From: Pyruvatibacter sp. HU-CL02332
GTDB lineage: Bacteria; Pseudomonadota; Alphaproteobacteria; CGMCC-115125
Direction: 5' to 3'
Length of the DNA stretch: 64,000 bases
Assembly (NCBI RefSeq): GCF_040362765.1
Contig: NZ_BAABWK010000001.1
Span: 124,001 to 188,000, forward strand
The translations under genes were made by a program, and so were the position numbers. The notes below the pieces were generated by a model. That model worked only from the letters and a program-made list of their open reading frames with translations. It was not told the origin of the DNA and did not search any database. How positions within the stretch are numbered: the stretch's first letter is position 1; each line of letters opens with the position of its first letter. Of the stretch, positions 21,354-29,091 are shown in pieces.

Positions 21354-21614
21354 ATGGCCGGAGCTGTCGTACCCAAGTTCAAAAACGACGATGCCGTCGC
21401 GATCATTGAGGTCGGGGTGAAGGAATTTCACTGCACCGGCGCAAGCGCACCCCACGATCACCCGCATGTCTATCTCGACATGGGGTCGGACGATGAAATC
21501 ATCTGCCCGTACTGCTCCACTCTTTATCGGCTGAACACCTCTCTTGAGCCGACCGAGAGCATCCCGCCAAGCGCCATCCTGATCCCCGAGCTGACAGGCT
21601 CGGACCGGCGCTAA
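21354..21614 (+). CDS. zinc-finger (zf-CHCC) protein
   Basis: 86-residue protein of the zf-CHCC family, related to the C-terminus of complex I subunit NDUFS6. The zinc ligands are visible as EFHCTGA, HDHPHVYLDMG and EIICPYCSTLYR. Bacterial members are found in alphaproteobacteria, probably linked to respiratory complex I or as small zinc proteins. ATG 21354 has AGGGA 8 bases upstream, better than the in-frame ATG at 21318. It converges on the amidohydrolase with 9 bp between stops. Confidence 0.85.
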   Translation: MAGAVVPKFKNDDAVAIIEVGVKEFHCTGASAPHDHPHVYLDMGSDDEIICPYCSTLYRLNTSLEPTESIPPSAILIPELTGSDRR

Positions 21615-21623
21615 GCCAACAAG

Positions 21624-22814
21624 CTAGGCTGCAACCAGATGGGCGGGACGGCGCAGATCTTCCGCCAGCCCCTCACCCATCAGGTCGATGAAGTTCTCAG
21701 CATAAAACCCGTCAATCGCTGTCTGCGGCATGCCTTCAAGGCTCGCATCAAACCGCTTGAGCGGATTGCGCCCCCCTTCCACATGCGGGAAGTCGGTGGA
21801 AAACAGGCATGTCTCCTCGCCTGAATTAGCGATGATCCAGCCCGCGTCTTCGTGCGGATAAGGCGCAACGCGCAATTGACGCCGCACAATCTCCGACGGT
21901 TTGTCTGACAGGTTTTGCAGCCGCTCTTCATTGCGCATGAAGGCATGGGCCGCCGAATCCATGGACCGCATCCAGCCAGGAAGCCACGCGGCACCCAACT
22001 CGATGGCGCCCCATTTGAGGCTTGGGAAACGGTCAAACACCCCGTCAAAAATCAGTGTCGCCAGCGTCTGCATTGCTGACTGGGGAATGGGCATGTAGCT
22101 CACGGACGTGAAATTGTCGTCGCCGCCGTGAAAGTCGGGCACCGGCGGCAGACCATTTTGCTTGTAGGTCGGGTTGAGTTTGTCCTCGCCACCCACGTGC
22201 ATGAGAACGGGAATGCCCGCCTCCTGCGCCATCGCCCAGACCGGGAAGAGACCCGTATGGCTGGGGCTGTGGCGTTGCGGGCACCAGGACGGGATGAGCA
22301 AAGCCTTGGCACCAAGCGCGATGGCATCTTTTGCAATGGCTTCCGCGCGGGCAAAATCTTCAAGCGGCACATAGGCTGTTGCCAGCAAGCGGCGATCCAC
22401 CTTGCAGAAATCGGTCATCATGCGGTTATGGGCATGCGCGACCGCGTAACACAGTTCCATGTCGTTGCTCTGGTCGAGATCAAAATTGCCAAGACAGAAG
22501 GTCGTGAACACAAGCTGGCTTGCAACGCCAAGCAGATCGACAGCACGCGGGCGATCGTCCGCAATGAACGACCCCATGCCTTCATAGTTCTTGCGCGCCA
22601 TGATGTTGGCGTCGGCCTCGGCACGAAAAGCGTTATCCGCCTGGGTCGCGCGCGCGGCATCGGCCCACGCATTGTTACCAACCTTGGTGCGGTAGATATC
22701 CAGCGCGTGATAGCGGTCCAGCAGACGCTTTTCGAGATAGGGATCCAGACAGTCCCCAAGTTCCATCAGGTGACTGTCCGCGTCATGAACGAGACGTCCG
22801 TCAATATAGGCCAT
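21624..22814 (-). CDS. amidohydrolase-2 family metal-dependent hydrolase
   Basis: 396-residue TIM-barrel hydrolase or decarboxylase of the Amidohydro_2 (COG2159) group. The N-terminal metal motif reads VHDADSHLMEL, a mid-barrel ligand is in VLMHVGGED, and the late Asp in CLFSTDFPHVEGG. The family acts on cyclic amides, imidazolones or as aromatic decarboxylase; the substrate here is unknown. ATG 22814 has GGGAGGACAGC upstream, so I did not use the longer frame to 22985. Confidence 0.87.
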   Translation of the reverse strand: MAYIDGRLVHDADSHLMELGDCLDPYLEKRLLDRYHALDIYRTKVGNNAWADAARATQADNAFRAEADANIMARKNYEGMGSFIADDRPRAVDLLGVASQLVFTTFCLGNFDLDQSNDMELCYAVAHAHNRMMTDFCKVDRRLLATAYVPLEDFARAEAIAKDAIALGAKALLIPSWCPQRHSPSHTGLFPVWAMAQEAGIPVLMHVGGEDKLNPTYKQNGLPPVPDFHGGDDNFTSVSYMPIPQSAMQTLATLIFDGVFDRFPSLKWGAIELGAAWLPGWMRSMDSAAHAFMRNEERLQNLSDKPSEIVRRQLRVAPYPHEDAGWIIANSGEETCLFSTDFPHVEGGRNPLKRFDASLEGMPQTAIDGFYAENFIDLMGEGLAEDLRRPAHLVAA

Positions 22815-23021
22815 GCTGTCCTCCCCTCGGCGTGCGCAGCTTTGATGCTGCTTTTGGTGCCGGTCTTCTTCATGCAGCAAGAGTGGCCCCACAAATCGAA
22901 GCTGTCCAGCATCGAGCGCTTCCGGCTGCTTACGTACCAGGTAATTGGTCCACCGACCTCCCGCGCCCATTTTGAGCCCACGCACCGCAGCCCGACCAAC
23001 TCGGAAATGGGAGACATCTCA

Positions 23022-23336
23022 ATGTCACGCAAACACCTGTATCTCGCCCTCACCATCATCGGCATCATCATGCCGTATTCCTATTTCGTCCCGTGGTTTC
23101 TGGAGAATACTGGCGACGTGGCCGGTTTCTTTGCCCTGGCAACAGCCAACCCGATTGCCACCATGCTGACCTGGGACATCGGCATCTCGGCGCTGGTGCT
23201 GGTGGTTTTTGCCCTCGCCCACCTCACGCAGCTTGGCGTCGGCAAGATCGTTGCTGTCATTGCCGGCACATTTCTCATCGGCGTGTCCTGCGGCCTGCCG
23301 TTGCTTCTTTACTTCCGCGAAAGCGACGCCACATGA
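23022..23336 (+). CDS. DUF2834 membrane protein
   Basis: 104 residues with three hydrophobic segments, in the DUF2834 pattern LTIIGIIMPYSYFVPWF, then DIGISALVLVVFALA and IVAVIAGTFLIGVSCGLPLLLYFR. Function unknown. ATG 23022 has GGGAG upstream. Its stop overlaps the next start (ATGA), so translation is coupled to another small membrane protein. Confidence 0.8.
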   Translation: MSRKHLYLALTIIGIIMPYSYFVPWFLENTGDVAGFFALATANPIATMLTWDIGISALVLVVFALAHLTQLGVGKIVAVIAGTFLIGVSCGLPLLLYFRESDAT

Positions 23337-23794
23337 CTGCGCGCTCCGTCCTCGGCGTCTTTTCAATCGCGTTCGGCGTCATGGGTCTGCTCTTTGTCCT
23401 GCTGCCTGGCCTGACGCTGAGCTTCTTCGACTGGATGGTCTATGGCGGCTATGACGCAAGCCCCGTGCAGTCAGGCTTGATGGATGGCGAAACCCGCCGC
23501 TATGCCGGGTTCATCTATCAGGTGCTTGGCGCTGTGCTGTTCGGCTGGGCCGTGCTGTTGACGCTGGTAATACGCGGGCCACGGCTTGAGACAGACAGCG
23601 CCACCACCGCCACACAGGTGTTGGATGCATGGACATGGCGCGTGTTCGCAACGTCATTTGTCGCGTGGTACGTCCTCGACACCACCATGTCGCTCGTCAT
23701 GGGCTTCTGGCAGAACGCTGTGTTCAACACCCTGTTCGGCATCGTCGTTGCGGTCCCCCTGATCCTTGGCTGGAACAAAGCGACGCAGAGATAG
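23333..23794 (+). CDS. four-helix membrane protein of unknown function
   Basis: 153 residues with four hydrophobic segments (SVLGVFSIAFGVMGLLFVLLP, FIYQVLGAVLFGWAVLLTLV, VFATSFVAWYVLDTTMSLV, NTLFGIVVAVPLILGW). No cysteines or charged motifs of note. Overlaps the DUF2834 gene by 4 bp, so both probably act in one membrane complex or pathway. I do not recognise the family. Confidence 0.7.
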   Translation: MTARSVLGVFSIAFGVMGLLFVLLPGLTLSFFDWMVYGGYDASPVQSGLMDGETRRYAGFIYQVLGAVLFGWAVLLTLVIRGPRLETDSATTATQVLDAWTWRVFATSFVAWYVLDTTMSLVMGFWQNAVFNTLFGIVVAVPLILGWNKATQR

Positions 23795-23859
23795 GGCTGG
23801 TGACCCCAATGTGGTGCAGCTAGGCTAGCCGCAACAACAAATGCGGGGGAACAAAGCGG

Positions 23860-24546
23860 ATGGAAAACGTCAAACGGCACTGGTTGCATTGTGTGCTGGC
23901 AGGTCTGGCGGTGTTGCTGATCGCCATCTTCCTGATGCCGAAATTTCCAACAGACAGCGCAGGCATTGAGCCGGGATATGGTTCGCCGATCATTGCGTTT
24001 GAAATGGCCCGCTCTGTTGCTGACCTCCATGCCGTATTCGGCACGCCCGATGATCCCGAACGTGCCCGTCGCATTGCCATGATGGACGACGGCAACATCT
24101 GGGACTTCCCCTTCATGATTGCCTATGGCCTGTTCATCGCGCTGTTCCTGCGCGCCGCGGGCAAGGCGACCGGCAACACGATCTGGTACCTGCTGGCCAT
24201 GCTCGGCATTGTCGCCGGTGCCGCAGACGCCATTGAGAACAACATTCTGCTGGGCCTGACCGCCGACATTGAAGGCGCACCCGATATCGGATTGCTGGCC
24301 TATCCTGTCTGGACCAAATTCCTGAGCATCATGATCACCGGCGTTGCTGGTGGCATCGTCATCGCCACCCAGGGCCGCCACTTCTGGCGCATCCTCGGTG
24401 TGGTTGCCGCAGCAAGTGCATTACTTACGCTGCCCGCTTTCTACGACCCTGCAACATACGGCGCCCTGCTGACGCTTGGCGTCACCATCTGCTGGGTCAT
24501 CATGCTGATCTTCGCCATCACCCGCTGGCGGCAGGCGGCGGCGTAG
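23860..24546 (+). CDS. multi-pass membrane protein of unknown function
   Basis: 228 residues, about six hydrophobic segments. The first loop (FPTDSAGIEPGYGSPIIAFE) is periplasmic-looking and polar. The motif ADAIENNILLGL in the middle may be a family mark, but I cannot name the family. It lies 65 bp after the two small membrane proteins and may be the last gene of that operon. Confidence 0.7.
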   Translation: MENVKRHWLHCVLAGLAVLLIAIFLMPKFPTDSAGIEPGYGSPIIAFEMARSVADLHAVFGTPDDPERARRIAMMDDGNIWDFPFMIAYGLFIALFLRAAGKATGNTIWYLLAMLGIVAGAADAIENNILLGLTADIEGAPDIGLLAYPVWTKFLSIMITGVAGGIVIATQGRHFWRILGVVAAASALLTLPAFYDPATYGALLTLGVTICWVIMLIFAITRWRQAAA

Positions 24547-24594
24547 AGCTAGCACAACACTACGCCCTGCCGGCCGACCGCCTCACACAGCGCG

Positions 24595-25122
24595 TCAGTC
24601 AAACCACATGCGCCCGATCAGGCCATCTTTCTTGATGAAGTGGTGATAGAGCGCAGCCCCGATGTGAAGGAAGAGCAACGCCACCATGAAGCGTGCACCA
24701 AGCCCGTGCGGCAGGCGGGGCGCGTAGTCATGAAAATCCGGAAGCGACGCAGAGGCGCCGGCGAACAGGCTCTGCCCTGCCCCGGAAAGAACGACCATGC
24801 CAATTCCGCTGGCGGCCATCCCAAGGATCACCACGTAAAAAAGAACGTGGACAGCCTTGGCGCTGGCAGTCTGCCAGGCGGGGTCGCCTGCGACCGGCTT
24901 GGGCTTGGTATCACCAAAGCCCCACCATACGAGACGCGCCAGAGTGAGGACGAGAATGGCAACCCCCAAGGGCACATGCACTGACAGAAGGGATGCCTTG
25001 GCAGCGCTGTCCGCAAGTCCAGCCGCGCGGAAACCCGGGCCCAGAAGAGCAAGAATGAGCAGCGCACTGATCCAGTGAATGGTGACCGCGACCGTACCGT
25101 ATCGGGTGGACGTACTTTTCAT
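24595..25122 (-). CDS. cytochrome b561 family membrane protein
   Basis: 175 residues with four hydrophobic segments and the heme-ligand histidines of the bacterial cytochrome b561 family: VTIHWISAL (helix 1), LSVHVPLG (helix 2), AVHVLFYV (helix 3) and LLFLHIGAALYHHF (helix 4). The family moves electrons between quinol and periplasmic acceptors, such as superoxide for E. coli CybB. Downstream of the exported EF-hand/ABM gene by 12 bp and likely co-transcribed. MarR-type operators lie upstream of the pair. Confidence 0.9.
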   Translation of the reverse strand: MKSTSTRYGTVAVTIHWISALLILALLGPGFRAAGLADSAAKASLLSVHVPLGVAILVLTLARLVWWGFGDTKPKPVAGDPAWQTASAKAVHVLFYVVILGMAASGIGMVVLSGAGQSLFAGASASLPDFHDYAPRLPHGLGARFMVALLFLHIGAALYHHFIKKDGLIGRMWFD

Positions 25123-25134
25123 GCGCTTTGCCCC

Positions 25135-25902
25135 CTAGTCCCGAGCCACGACGGTGTAGAGACCAGGCGTGAAGCTGAGCCCTTCGATTTCAGGTGCCTT
25201 GCCATTGGCATTCATGGCCGCCGACGCAGACTTGAAGGCGTCCGCACTTTCCCAGACGGCAACATTGATCAATGCAAATTTTGCATCCGGCGTGATGGAC
25301 TGATGAAGCGCTGTGGAGACATAGCCCGGCTGCGTTTGCAGGAAGTCCCGGCTCTTGGTCCACATGGCGATTGCCTGATCAAGCGCACCGTCTGTCACTT
25401 CAAAGACATTGATGAGGGTCACCTCGGTGCTGACGTCAATTGCATCATTCATGTCCGCTATCATCCTTATGTTTGATTTGAAGGCTGCGAAAGTGAGCGG
25501 CGTGTCGCTGTTGCTTGCCGCCACATAGAGGTCTTTGGAGTTGGACAGGCTCTGCTCGGCTGCATCGAGCGCACCATCGCCATTGACGTCCCAGGCTTCA
25601 AAGATGCGGGTGCGCACCTGGAGGTATTGGTCAAAGAGGCCCCGCTTTTCTGCAAGGTGGCCCCACCCGACACCCCACCCGAGATGTTCCTCGGCCGTCA
25701 CGACGCCATCATCGTCCACGTCCTGGGAAATCATCACGTCCTGCCGGAACACATCCATTTCCCGCGGTGACACCACAGCGTCCCCATTGAGATCAATCGA
25801 CTGGAACAGCGTGCGGTTCACATCATCCAGTTCACGGTCCAGCGCATGGGCGGGTGCCAGTGACAGACACAGAGCAGCGCAGGTCAGCAGGAGAGTTTTC
25901 AT
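25135..25902 (-). CDS. exported EF-hand / ABM monooxygenase fusion protein
   Basis: 255 residues. A signal peptide (MKTLLLTCAALCLSLAPAHA) sends it to the periplasm. Three EF-hand loops follow: DLNGDAVVSPRE at about 37-48, DVDDDGVVTAEE at about 61-72 and DVNGDGALDAAE at about 104-115. The C-terminal 95 residues resemble an ABM (antibiotic biosynthesis monooxygenase/heme-degrading) domain: VTLINVFEV, MWTKSRDFLQTQPGYVSTAL and FALINVAVWESADAFKSA. The calcium-binding half plus ABM half is an unusual arrangement. First gene of an operon with cytochrome b561; the promoter overlaps MarR-type palindromes. Confidence 0.8.
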   Translation of the reverse strand: MKTLLLTCAALCLSLAPAHALDRELDDVNRTLFQSIDLNGDAVVSPREMDVFRQDVMISQDVDDDGVVTAEEHLGWGVGWGHLAEKRGLFDQYLQVRTRIFEAWDVNGDGALDAAEQSLSNSKDLYVAASNSDTPLTFAAFKSNIRMIADMNDAIDVSTEVTLINVFEVTDGALDQAIAMWTKSRDFLQTQPGYVSTALHQSITPDAKFALINVAVWESADAFKSASAAMNANGKAPEIEGLSFTPGLYTVVARD

Positions 25903-25930
25903 TTTGATCGGTCCCTACAGTGTTTTTTTC

Positions 25931-25989
25931 ATAGCAAGCTATGCTTAAGATGGATAGCAAGCTATACTTTTTGATAAATAGCAAGCTAT
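25931..25989. promoter_or_regulatory. three identical palindromes, likely MarR operators
   Basis: The 12-base sequence ATAGCAAGCTAT (ATAGC-AA-GCTAT) occurs exactly three times: 25931-25942, 25954-25965 and 25978-25989. Spacing of starts is 23 and 24 bases, about two helical turns. The third copy lies in the spacer of a possible promoter for the marR-type gene (TTGATA 25971-25976, TATCTG 25993-25998). The array lies between the divergent EF-hand/ABM and MarR genes. Confidence 0.88.
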
Positions 25990-26034
25990 TTATATCTGTA
26001 TCGCGAACCCGGCAGTACGCTGCTAGATAAACAC

Positions 26035-26463
26035 ATGGACTTTAATCACATGGATTCTGCCGGATATCTGGTGAACCACATCGCGCGGCTGTTTGCAGAC
26101 GGCCTGCGGCGGCGGGTGGAACCGCTTGGCATTGTGCCGGGTCAGTTCCCCGCCCTTCTGGAGCTCTGGATCGAAGACGGGCAGACCCAAAAGCAGCTCG
26201 TCGAGAAGCTGGACATCGAGCAGGCAACCCTCGCCTACACACTTGGGCGCATGGAACGCGACGGCCTCATCACCCGTGAGGAACATCCCGATGACCGGCG
26301 GTCCCGCATTGTCTATTTGACCGACAAGGCAAAGGCGATCCGCGATGACGCCTACGCAGCGGCCCACGAAACCAACACCATTGCCATGTCCACGCTCTCC
26401 AAGAGCGAGCAAAAGCAGTTTGTGGATTTCATGCAGCGCATCATCAAGGTGATGCGGGACTAG
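26035..26463 (+). CDS. MarR family transcriptional regulator
   Basis: 142-residue winged-helix regulator. The DNA-binding segment reads QKQLVEKLDIEQATLAYTLGRMERDGLITREEHPDDRRSRIVYLTD, a typical MarR recognition helix and wing with the DDRRSR motif. Dimerisation helices lie at both ends. Start could be ATG 26035 or ATG 26050. It is divergent from the EF-hand/ABM operon across three identical palindromes, so it most likely controls that operon and itself. The ligand is unknown. Confidence 0.9.
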   Translation: MDFNHMDSAGYLVNHIARLFADGLRRRVEPLGIVPGQFPALLELWIEDGQTQKQLVEKLDIEQATLAYTLGRMERDGLITREEHPDDRRSRIVYLTDKAKAIRDDAYAAAHETNTIAMSTLSKSEQKQFVDFMQRIIKVMRD

Positions 26464-26555
26464 GCGGCGGACGCGGGATTGCTCCCGCCCGCTTCTGCGT
26501 TAGCGGACGGTCACATCCCGGCTGCGGACGAGCCAGCGTGGGTTAGGCCGGCTCT

Positions 26556-28298
26556 TTATTCAGCTGCTTGAAGCTGTTCGACGGTCTGTGGCCCACGAAC
26601 CAAACCACCCGGACGCTTGTCAGTCACAACGCCGCCCTTGAAGGTCACCTGCCCCGACTTGATGGTGTAGTCATAGCCATCGGCCTTTTGAAGCAGGCGC
26701 TTGCCACCCGCTGGCAGATCAAAGGCCAGCCAGGGCTTGCCAAGTTTGATCTGGTCCATGTCGATGACGTTGACGTCTGCAAGGTAGCCCGGCTTCAGCA
26801 CGCCGCGATCATTGAGGCCGTAGAGGCGCGCCGTATCCAGACACTGCCGCTTGATGGCGTGCTCGATGCTGAGCGTTCCACGCGACCGGTTCTTGACCCA
26901 GTGCTCGAGCATGAAGGTCGGGCTGGCCGCATCACAAATGGTGCCGCAATGGGCGCCACCATCAGACAGACTGTTCACCGTGTCGTCGGCCTGCTGCAAT
27001 GCTTCGAGGAAATCGAGATTGCCGTCCATGTAGTTGAGCAGCGGCAGGTAGATGAAGCCTTTGCCGTCATCGCCCATCATCAGGTCATACGCATATTCTG
27101 CGCCCGATTTTCCGGCGGCTTCAGCGCGGCTGGCAATACTTTCGTCTGCCTGCGGCTCATAGTTGAAGTCTTCATCCATCTCGAACTGCATCGCCCAGCC
27201 CTGGGTCACCACCATGAACACCGGCACCAGATCAACTTCTTCGGGCATTTCACTGGTTTCGCTCAGCAACTGCGCCTTGAATGCTGGATCCTTGAGCTTG
27301 GCGTATTTTTCGTCCCAGCTCAGATCTTCCATCGCGACCCAGCTTGGATGACGAACGAAAGGATGAACCGTCCCCTGCCACGCCATCACGATGCCATTCC
27401 CGCGCAACGCAATCTGGGCAACAATGTTGGCCCCGTTGTCATTTTCAGCGCGCATATTGGCAATCTGCTCATCCAGCGACTGATCCTTGGCAATCGACTG
27501 GAGAGCCGCAAACGTCACCGGCATTCCGGTTTCGCGGCTCAGATCACCCATCCACTCGAACTCGTTCCATTCCTTGTTGAGATCGCTGGCCATTTCAAAC
27601 ACGCCATAGCCGACGCGACCCATCGCGCGGCCAATGCCGATAAGCTCTTCCTTGGTCGCCGTCGTGCCGGGCACCAGTTCGCCATCAATCGACCGGTGCA
27701 GGATCGTCCGCGATGTCGAGAAACCAAGCGCGCCGGCTTTCAAACCGTCCTCGACGATATCCGACATTTGCTGAATTTCTTCTTCCGTGGGAACAGCGCC
27801 GGGTTTTTCCTTGTCGCCCAGCACATAGGCCCGCACGGCACCGTGGGGGACATGGGTTGCCACATCGACAGTCCGTGGAAGCTTCTCAAGCTCATCGAGA
27901 TATTCGGGGAACGTTTCCCAGTTCCAGCTCATGCCTTCGGCCAATGCAGTGCCGGGAATATCTTCCACGCCTTCCATCAGACCAATCAGCCAGTCATGGC
28001 GATCAGGCCGGGCGGGCGCAAAGCCAACGCCGCAATTGCCCATCACCACCGTGGTGATGCCGTGCCAGCTCGAAGGCGCCATTTCGTCGTCCCACGTGGC
28101 CTGGCCATCATAGTGGGTGTGCACATCCACAAAGCCGGGGGTGACGACTTTACCGGTCGCGTCAATCTCTTCGCGCCCTTGCGCCTTGACCTCGCCCACG
28201 AGGGTCACACGGTCGCCATCAATGGCAACATCCGCTGTGAAGGGCGCAGCGCCCGTCCCATCAACAATTGTCCCGCCACGAATTACTAGATCATGCAT
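26556..28298 (-). CDS. N-acyl-D-amino-acid deacylase-like amidohydrolase
   Basis: 580-residue amidohydrolase-superfamily enzyme. N-terminal strand [14 protein letters not shown] and metal motif [15 protein letters not shown], then [20 protein letters not shown] and late motifs [16 protein letters not shown] and [19 protein letters not shown] belong to the D-aminoacylase group. It probably removes an acyl or carbamoyl group from a D-amino acid or related amide; the substrate is inferred. GGGAAAAAG lies upstream of the ATG. A perfect palindrome at 28320-28336 indicates a dedicated repressor, though no regulator is adjacent. Confidence 0.87.
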
Positions 28299-28319
28299 CG
28301 TCTTTTTCCCGCCCTGTCG

Positions 28320-28336
28320 AATGACAAACTGTCATT
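28320..28336. promoter_or_regulatory. perfect palindromic operator
   Basis: AATGACA, AAC, TGTCATT: seven-base perfect arms, 17 bases in all, centred 30 bases before the start codon of the deacylase-like gene. The TGACA-N3-TGTCA form is common among TetR-family operators. No regulator gene is next to it. Confidence 0.65.
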
Positions 28337-28398
28337 AAGGTAACGAGTTTGGCGAGCGGATCAAGGTGAGGACATGCTGCAGTGCAGTGCTGTCGACA

Positions 28399-28441
28399 GG
28401 CTGCCGGGCTTGAACCAGCTTGGACGTTATTGTCCGAGGGA
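28399..28441 (-). repeat. duplicated 3' part of tRNA-Leu (attachment-site-like)
   Basis: These 43 bases match 29010-29052 of the intact tRNA-Leu gene at 38 positions. The match covers the 3' anticodon-stem strand, the variable arm, the T arm and the first acceptor bases, and stops before the CCA end. The copies are in direct orientation 611 bp apart, as produced when an element integrates at a tRNA 3' end. The last codons of the kinase gene (Ser-Leu-Gly-Gln-stop) lie inside this copy. Confidence 0.85.
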
Positions 28442-28978
28442 CTTCTTGGCAGCTTCTCGCAGTATATCGTCGACCACCGTCTCGAGCGGTGCAGCAGCAT
28501 CAATCACGATGGCATTATCAGGCATGTCTTCTTCGGTGCGGTGTAGGCGCGCAACAAGGTCTTTTTCTTCTGGTCTGCCGCCAAAATCAGTCGGGTCTAT
28601 TGCCACTCTCTCATCAAGTCGTCGATGTATCGTTTCGATATCATCGACCTTGAGAACAAAGACCCCGTCGAGCAGATCAATAAAGTGATCGACATTCCGG
28701 CAGCCGCCGCAAAAGAAAGAAACCTGGACACCATGGTCAGCGATGACGGATTTCACTTTGTCCGTGTCCCACAATAGATGCGTGTGCCGCCATAGGGTTT
28801 TGTCTTTTGCACTCGCGTGAACAGGTTCTTCCACCGGCTCGCCGGTCTTGGGATCGCCTCGATACTTAAGCTCCCGGTCCCCGTGCAAAACGTGATACCC
28901 GCGCCGCTGCAATTCTTCAGCTACGGTCGTCTTGCCGGTGCCCGATACGCCTTCGATCAAAAAGTTTTTGATGCCCAT
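28427..28978 (-). CDS. P-loop nucleotide kinase-like protein (possible cassette cargo)
   Basis: 183 residues. Walker A is GVSGTGKTT at residues 9-17, followed by a kinase-like helix and HGDRELKYRGDP; RRLDERVAIDPTDFGGR may be the lid. It resembles small AAA-type nucleoside or shikimate-like kinases with unknown substrate. ATG 28978 (MGIKNFLIEG) is chosen; the longer frame enters the tRNA gene region. The gene lies between a tRNA-Leu gene and a degenerate copy of its 3' half, and its final codons are derived from that copy. It may be cargo of a small integrated element without a visible integrase. Confidence 0.82.
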   Translation of the reverse strand: MGIKNFLIEGVSGTGKTTVAEELQRRGYHVLHGDRELKYRGDPKTGEPVEEPVHASAKDKTLWRHTHLLWDTDKVKSVIADHGVQVSFFCGGCRNVDHFIDLLDGVFVLKVDDIETIHRRLDERVAIDPTDFGGRPEEKDLVARLHRTEEDMPDNAIVIDAAAPLETVVDDILREAAKKSLGQ

Positions 28979-29002
28979 TTTTCTGCAAAACATAGAAGGC
29001 AA

Positions 29003-29091
29003 TGGTGCGGGCTGCCGGACTTGAACCGGCATGGACGTTACCGTCCGAGGGATTTTAAGTCCCTTGTGTCTACCAATTCCACCAAGCCCGC
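29003..29091 (-). tRNA. tRNA-Leu (anticodon UAA)
   Basis: On the - strand the gene begins GCGGGCTTGGT and ends AGCCCGC-A-CCA, a perfect 7-bp acceptor stem with encoded CCA. The anticodon loop CTTAAAA lies in an AGGGA/TCCCT stem, with the anticodon TAA at 29055-29057. There is a long variable arm (CGGACGGTAACGTCC), as in class II tRNAs, and a standard T arm with GGTTCAAGTCC. Its 3' half is duplicated at 28399-28441. Confidence 0.97.

Follow-up and report, generated by a model that had tools for sequence, protein, structure and literature searches.

Results

A kinase gene lies between tRNA-Leu(UAA) and a copy of its 3' half

The window, by which we mean the whole 64-kb stretch of DNA that was analyzed, contains a sole tRNA gene according to ARAGORN. 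This is an intact tRNA-Leu(UAA) on the minus strand (29003..29091; anticodon loop at tRNA positions 33-39), which scores 58.6 bits against RF00005 (Rfam). In the direction of the tRNA it is followed by a 24-nt spacer leading from the tRNA 3' end to the start codon of a kinase gene (28979..29002, minus strand), by the kinase open reading frame (28978 to 28427) and by a copy of the tRNA 3' half (28444 to 28399). The initial annotation had described the 3' part of the tRNA as directly repeated with 38 of 43 identical bases (28399-28441 versus 29010-29052) at a distance of 611 bp, and both figures turned out to be exact. The repeat can be extended to 46 nt at 87% identity. The proximal copy (29010..29055, minus strand) covers the tRNA from the anticodon loop to the T arm, and the distal copy (28399..28444, minus strand) runs from the same loop to a point 7 nt before the tRNA 3' end. 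A short match is also present upstream of the start of the distal copy, so that the core itself is not clearly duplicated. The local alignment of the repeat reaches a score of 62. The best of 2000 dinucleotide shuffles of the flank scored 25, as did the best alignment in the rest of the window, used as a control. These controls rule out a chance similarity.

The kinase open reading frame (28427..28978, minus strand) alone fills the 611 bp, as had been proposed for the unit from the start. It encodes a P-loop small-molecule kinase of 183 aa that matches PF13238 (AAA_18) with 31.6 bits. Its last four codons and its stop (28427..28441, minus strand) fall within the tRNA-derived copy: TCC CTC GGA CAA TAA, read as SLGQ-stop, is the anticodon-stem and variable-arm sequence of this copy, which bears out the early observation that the kinase ends in it. 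A longer version of the gene, with an ATG at 29032 that falls within the tRNA, was discarded since all full-length homologues begin at the internal Met. A simple scan detected no sigma-70-like promoter site for the kinase, including in the 24-nt spacer. Because the gene starts 24 nt behind the tRNA and no promoter of its own was detected, it is probably transcribed from the tRNA promoter. The kinase fold is predicted with confidence (pLDDT 92.3), the SLGQ tail being its least confident part (pLDDT 57). The nearest folds are those of gluconate, adenylate and nicotinamide-riboside kinases and no PDB entry matched by sequence; by its fold, the model can be assigned only to small-molecule kinases in general.

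The kinase family is patchy and mostly found away from tRNA genes

Homologues of the kinase are rare, being found in 6 of the 385 genomes of a class sample and in 6 of the 398 genomes of a phylum sample. Relatives with 67-75% identity occur in Chloroflexota, in other alphaproteobacteria and in one contig binned as Gracilibacteria, which may be a misbinning, and relatives with 50-60% identity are carried by Rhizobium and Sinorhizobium plasmids. The latter, annotated as nucleoside kinase or AAA family ATPase, belong to the same kinase family but, judging by the protein match, are not fused to a tRNA copy as the window kinase is. A phage origin of the kinase was rejected since none of 50,697 phage records matched it. 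No tRNA gene or fragment lies beside the other kinases at loci L003, L005-L014 and L038, nor did ARAGORN find a tRNA at loci L079-L082 and L084; at L083 a tRNA-Met (1168-1244) is located ~260 bp before the kinase. The C-termini of 14 homologues with no tRNA-Leu copy joined to them differ from that of the window kinase. The same C-terminus in unrelated contexts would speak against the att pair put forward by the initial annotation, and the kinases found elsewhere end differently. Judging from these comparisons the family crosses phyla with a patchy distribution and is generally a horizontally moving gene, mostly without an adjoining tRNA. We found no further copies of the kinase unit in its own genome.

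The unit is shared with a sister species

The window genome (G000) was compared with three other species of the genus (G001, G002 and G003). In G003 a kinase whose protein is 88% identical to the window kinase is located at the same place, its frame also ends in the tRNA copy (SLGR-stop) and the size of the unit is nearly equal to that of G000. Between the two species the kinase has a dN of 0.07 and a dS of 0.63 (dN/dS about 0.11), and the neighbouring amidohydrolase a dS of 0.48 and a dN of 0.009. These values indicate that the kinase is under purifying selection. As the dS of the kinase is close to that of the amidohydrolase, the unit most likely predates the split of G000 and G003 and has been vertically inherited since.

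The tRNA copy is better preserved in G003, where it is identical at 45 of 47 positions and extends into the acceptor stem, although the two kinase genes differ by 15% in DNA. Such conservation might mean that the distal fragment is kept for a function, for instance to signal processing or termination of the kinase mRNA. We find this hardly credible, since the G000 copy has changed at 5 of 43 positions and lost its acceptor end, obtains no tRNA score in Rfam and overlaps a single terminator-like match, on the opposite strand.

Past the distal copy, G000 and G003 differ by rearrangements, and window positions 24543-26485 are missing in G003. The amidohydrolase adjoining the distal copy is inverted there (window 26485-28367 versus L032 2434-4312). 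A zone that varies between species extends 3' of the tRNA (21613..29002), G001 regaining collinearity with the window only at 21613.

tRNA-Leu(UAA) is an insertion hot spot in the genus

The native tRNA 3' half has no kinase behind it in G001 and G002; the tRNA-Leu(UAA) of both species carries other insertions and the flanks differ from those of the window. The initial annotation expected an empty site in close relatives, with a single tRNA and no kinase at this locus. G001 and G002 lack the kinase, but a clean site without insertion was found in none of the four species compared. A kinase present at this spot in all relatives with no tRNA copy would have been difficult to reconcile with an att pair; instead, it is absent from two of the three species, and the third has the better kept copy. 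Two decayed fragments of the kinase family are found in G002 at contig ends (L005 and L006), away from any tRNA.

The insertions in G001, G002 and G003 all interrupt the native tRNA-Leu(UAA) within its anticodon stem-loop, and 11-17 bp occur on both sides of the insertion. The G001 insert (L031 5062-6369) contains an intact foreign tRNA-Leu(UAA) and, 15 nt further on, a DUF4145 gene with a PADLOC PD-T7-4 match. The G003 insert (L032 4943-6140) contains a related foreign tRNA-Leu(UAA) followed 13 nt on by an AbiV-family gene. Both inserts are 1.1-1.2 kb long, have no integrase and carry one defence-like gene each, and all 11 copies of TGTTGC/GCAACA are located in their non-coding arms. In viral contigs this arm motif gave only apparent chance matches without tRNA-Leu, and no AbiV-type insert like that of G003 was found elsewhere in the class (385 genomes). 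The two element tRNAs are 90% alike and both differ from the native tRNA. In genome searches, from which the tRNA counts per genome are taken, the other long-arm tRNAs examined in G001 and G003 were Leu(CAA, TAG, CAG, GAG), Ser or Tyr, so that the element of each species provides the only tRNA-Leu(UAA) found there.

In G002, whose assembly is fragmented, a tyrosine integrase and then a tRNA-Leu come after the native 5' half (L034 460-2216). This tRNA-Leu is interrupted by a group I intron-like sequence, which at 42.8 bits stays below the gathering score of RF00028. The native 3' half was found on a different contig, where it lies behind a HipAB-like pair. In G012, a genome of another family, an integrase 80% identical to that of G002 likewise precedes a tRNA-Leu with a group I intron (L044 4380-6130; RF00028, 56 bits, above the gathering score). 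In both integrase elements the replacement tRNA-Leu(UAA) is interrupted by a group I intron or intron-like sequence and the native tRNA-Leu is cut or mangled. Among the papers searched, none reported group I introns in proteobacterial tRNA-Leu elements. G012 also has a related integrase (65%) between two complete tRNA-Met genes (L042 1139-2857), the second of which is followed by a stretch resembling a decayed group I intron.

These inserts invite a broader and, in our opinion, rather doubtful generalization: the tRNA-Leu(UAA) of the genus may be a docking site for tiny satellites without integrase, each made up of a single gene of defence or kinase type, set 13-24 nt after a tRNA-Leu so that this cargo is expressed from the tRNA promoter. 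Some would carry a whole replacement tRNA, now the only tRNA-Leu(UAA) of the host, which would make the element hard to lose, and the kinase unit would be the most reduced of them.

A similar arrangement is found at tRNA-Leu(CAA) in another family

The search for similar units beside other tRNA genes, suggested with the initial annotation, was successful in G012, where tRNA-Leu(CAA) is followed by a kinase homologue that lacks its N-terminal third and whose end falls within a degenerate copy of the 3' half of that tRNA. This copy scores 53 versus a maximum of 25 in the control and of 27 in shuffles. The layout was present in no other genome among 40 searched in that taxonomic order, and support in the kinase tree is too weak to tell a single acquisition of the G012 and window copies from separate ones. 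Beyond the kinase scar, G012 encodes a protein of 523 aa that weakly matches PDC-M28C of PADLOC (L035 6996-8567) and may belong to the same decayed island.

It is difficult to see why one gene family should recur in this layout at a second leucine isoacceptor if such elements did not target the leucine anticodon arm. Together with the identical anticodon-loop cut in three species, this recurrence strengthens the interpretation of the repeats as an att pair. It also bears on whether site-specific recombination was involved at all, as a segment ending in the tRNA 3' half could have been duplicated, or joined at the tRNA by illegitimate or homologous recombination. The zone downstream is indeed much rearranged, including the inverted amidohydrolase, and the element's own recombinase is missing. 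However, the kinase units of G000/G003 and of G012 and the insertions of three species all have their break in the anticodon arm, which is not what random joining predicts, and we regard this explanation as very unlikely.

Discussion

Proposed origin of the kinase unit

We consider it likely that the kinase unit is what remains of an integrative element that inserted into tRNA-Leu(UAA) through site-specific recombination of the tyrosine-recombinase type, with a crossover in the anticodon stem-loop. The attP of such an element would have carried a tRNA 3' half, so that the target gene would have been restored beside the kinase, on the attL side. The original 3' half would have been pushed to the far, attR side, and this displaced fragment would now provide the last codons and the stop of the kinase. 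Integrase, arm sites and all other cargo would later have been lost, leaving the tRNA, the kinase and the tRNA scar. The insertion would have taken place before the G000/G003 species split and been inherited vertically afterwards, with the kinase kept by purifying selection because it is useful and possibly also because it lies just behind a tRNA promoter. We infer both the larger ancestor and the type of recombinase, the latter from the neighbours only, given that one of the insertions breaking the same tRNA carries a tyrosine integrase. Several points count against integration, namely the missing integrase, arm repeats and clean empty site, the rearranged outer flank and a core that is not clearly duplicated.

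The unit contains no integrase and no arm-like repeats and has no room for integrase arm sites. Its lack of arms makes an old, CIME-like scar the best reading, and the unit is probably immobile. The initial annotation had left the choice between a fossil and a trans-mobilised element. For the second, the 611 bp would be a truly minimal mobile cassette, made of a tRNA 3' half and one gene. It would never have been larger and would owe its movement to the integrase of a different tRNA-Leu element acting in trans. The nearly equal size of the unit in G000 and G003 fits this idea, as do the recurrence of this layout at another tRNA-Leu in a different family, the integrases of tRNA-Leu elements in G002 and G012 and the small G001 and G003 inserts, likewise devoid of integrase. 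However, a cassette of this kind is at odds with the lack of space and motifs for arm sites, with vertical inheritance since the species split and with the lack of further copies in its genome; moreover, the G002-type integrase is absent from G000 and G001 and its best match in G003 is 26% identical. We therefore judge the minimal cassette improbable and favour the fossil.

As a probable remnant of an integrative element, the kinase unit shows how far integrated elements can decay with a cargo gene surviving, and how a tRNA fragment can turn into coding sequence. At 611 bp and without integrase, it falls below the filters of the Islander survey, and such units may thus be undercounted. The hot spot as a whole forms a natural series of intact, kinase-scarred and split-and-replaced tRNA that bears on the dependence of an essential tRNA gene on mobile DNA.

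Comparison with known systems

Islands in tRNA genes have an intact tRNA at one end and a same-orientation 3' fragment at the other, as catalogued by Islander (PMC4383910). The anticodon loop, the T loop and the T/acceptor junction are the known break sublocations, and an anticodon-centred attP with a restored tRNA and a displaced fragment makes up a standard island class (PMC4383910). The kinase unit resembles these islands in its intact tRNA, its displaced same-orientation 3' fragment and its anticodon-arm break, located in the loop. It differs in being 611 bp long, with one gene and no tyrosine integrase gene inside, whereas Islander demands an integrase and rejects candidates <2 kb (PMC4383910). 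It is an extremely small case of this known kind.

Cis-mobilizable elements (CIMEs) are flanked by att sites and have lost their integration and transfer genes but kept their cargo (PMC5704250). The kinase unit shares these three traits with them but is far smaller, with a single gene, and has no known related intact element: our searches found no ICE or IME that could be its intact ancestor.

In the tRNA-dependent lysogeny of mycobacteriophages the host tRNA is split and not rebuilt, and the element brings along a complete tRNA of that isotype (PMC10865867). The kinase unit, with its one intact native tRNA, instead rebuilds the tRNA and does not belong to this class. The hot-spot inserts match its logic, and those of G001 and G003 show the arrangement of tRNA-dependent integration although they are only ~1.1-1.2 kb long, non-phage and without integrase. 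These tRNA-replacing mini-elements are a more novel part of the locus than the kinase unit.
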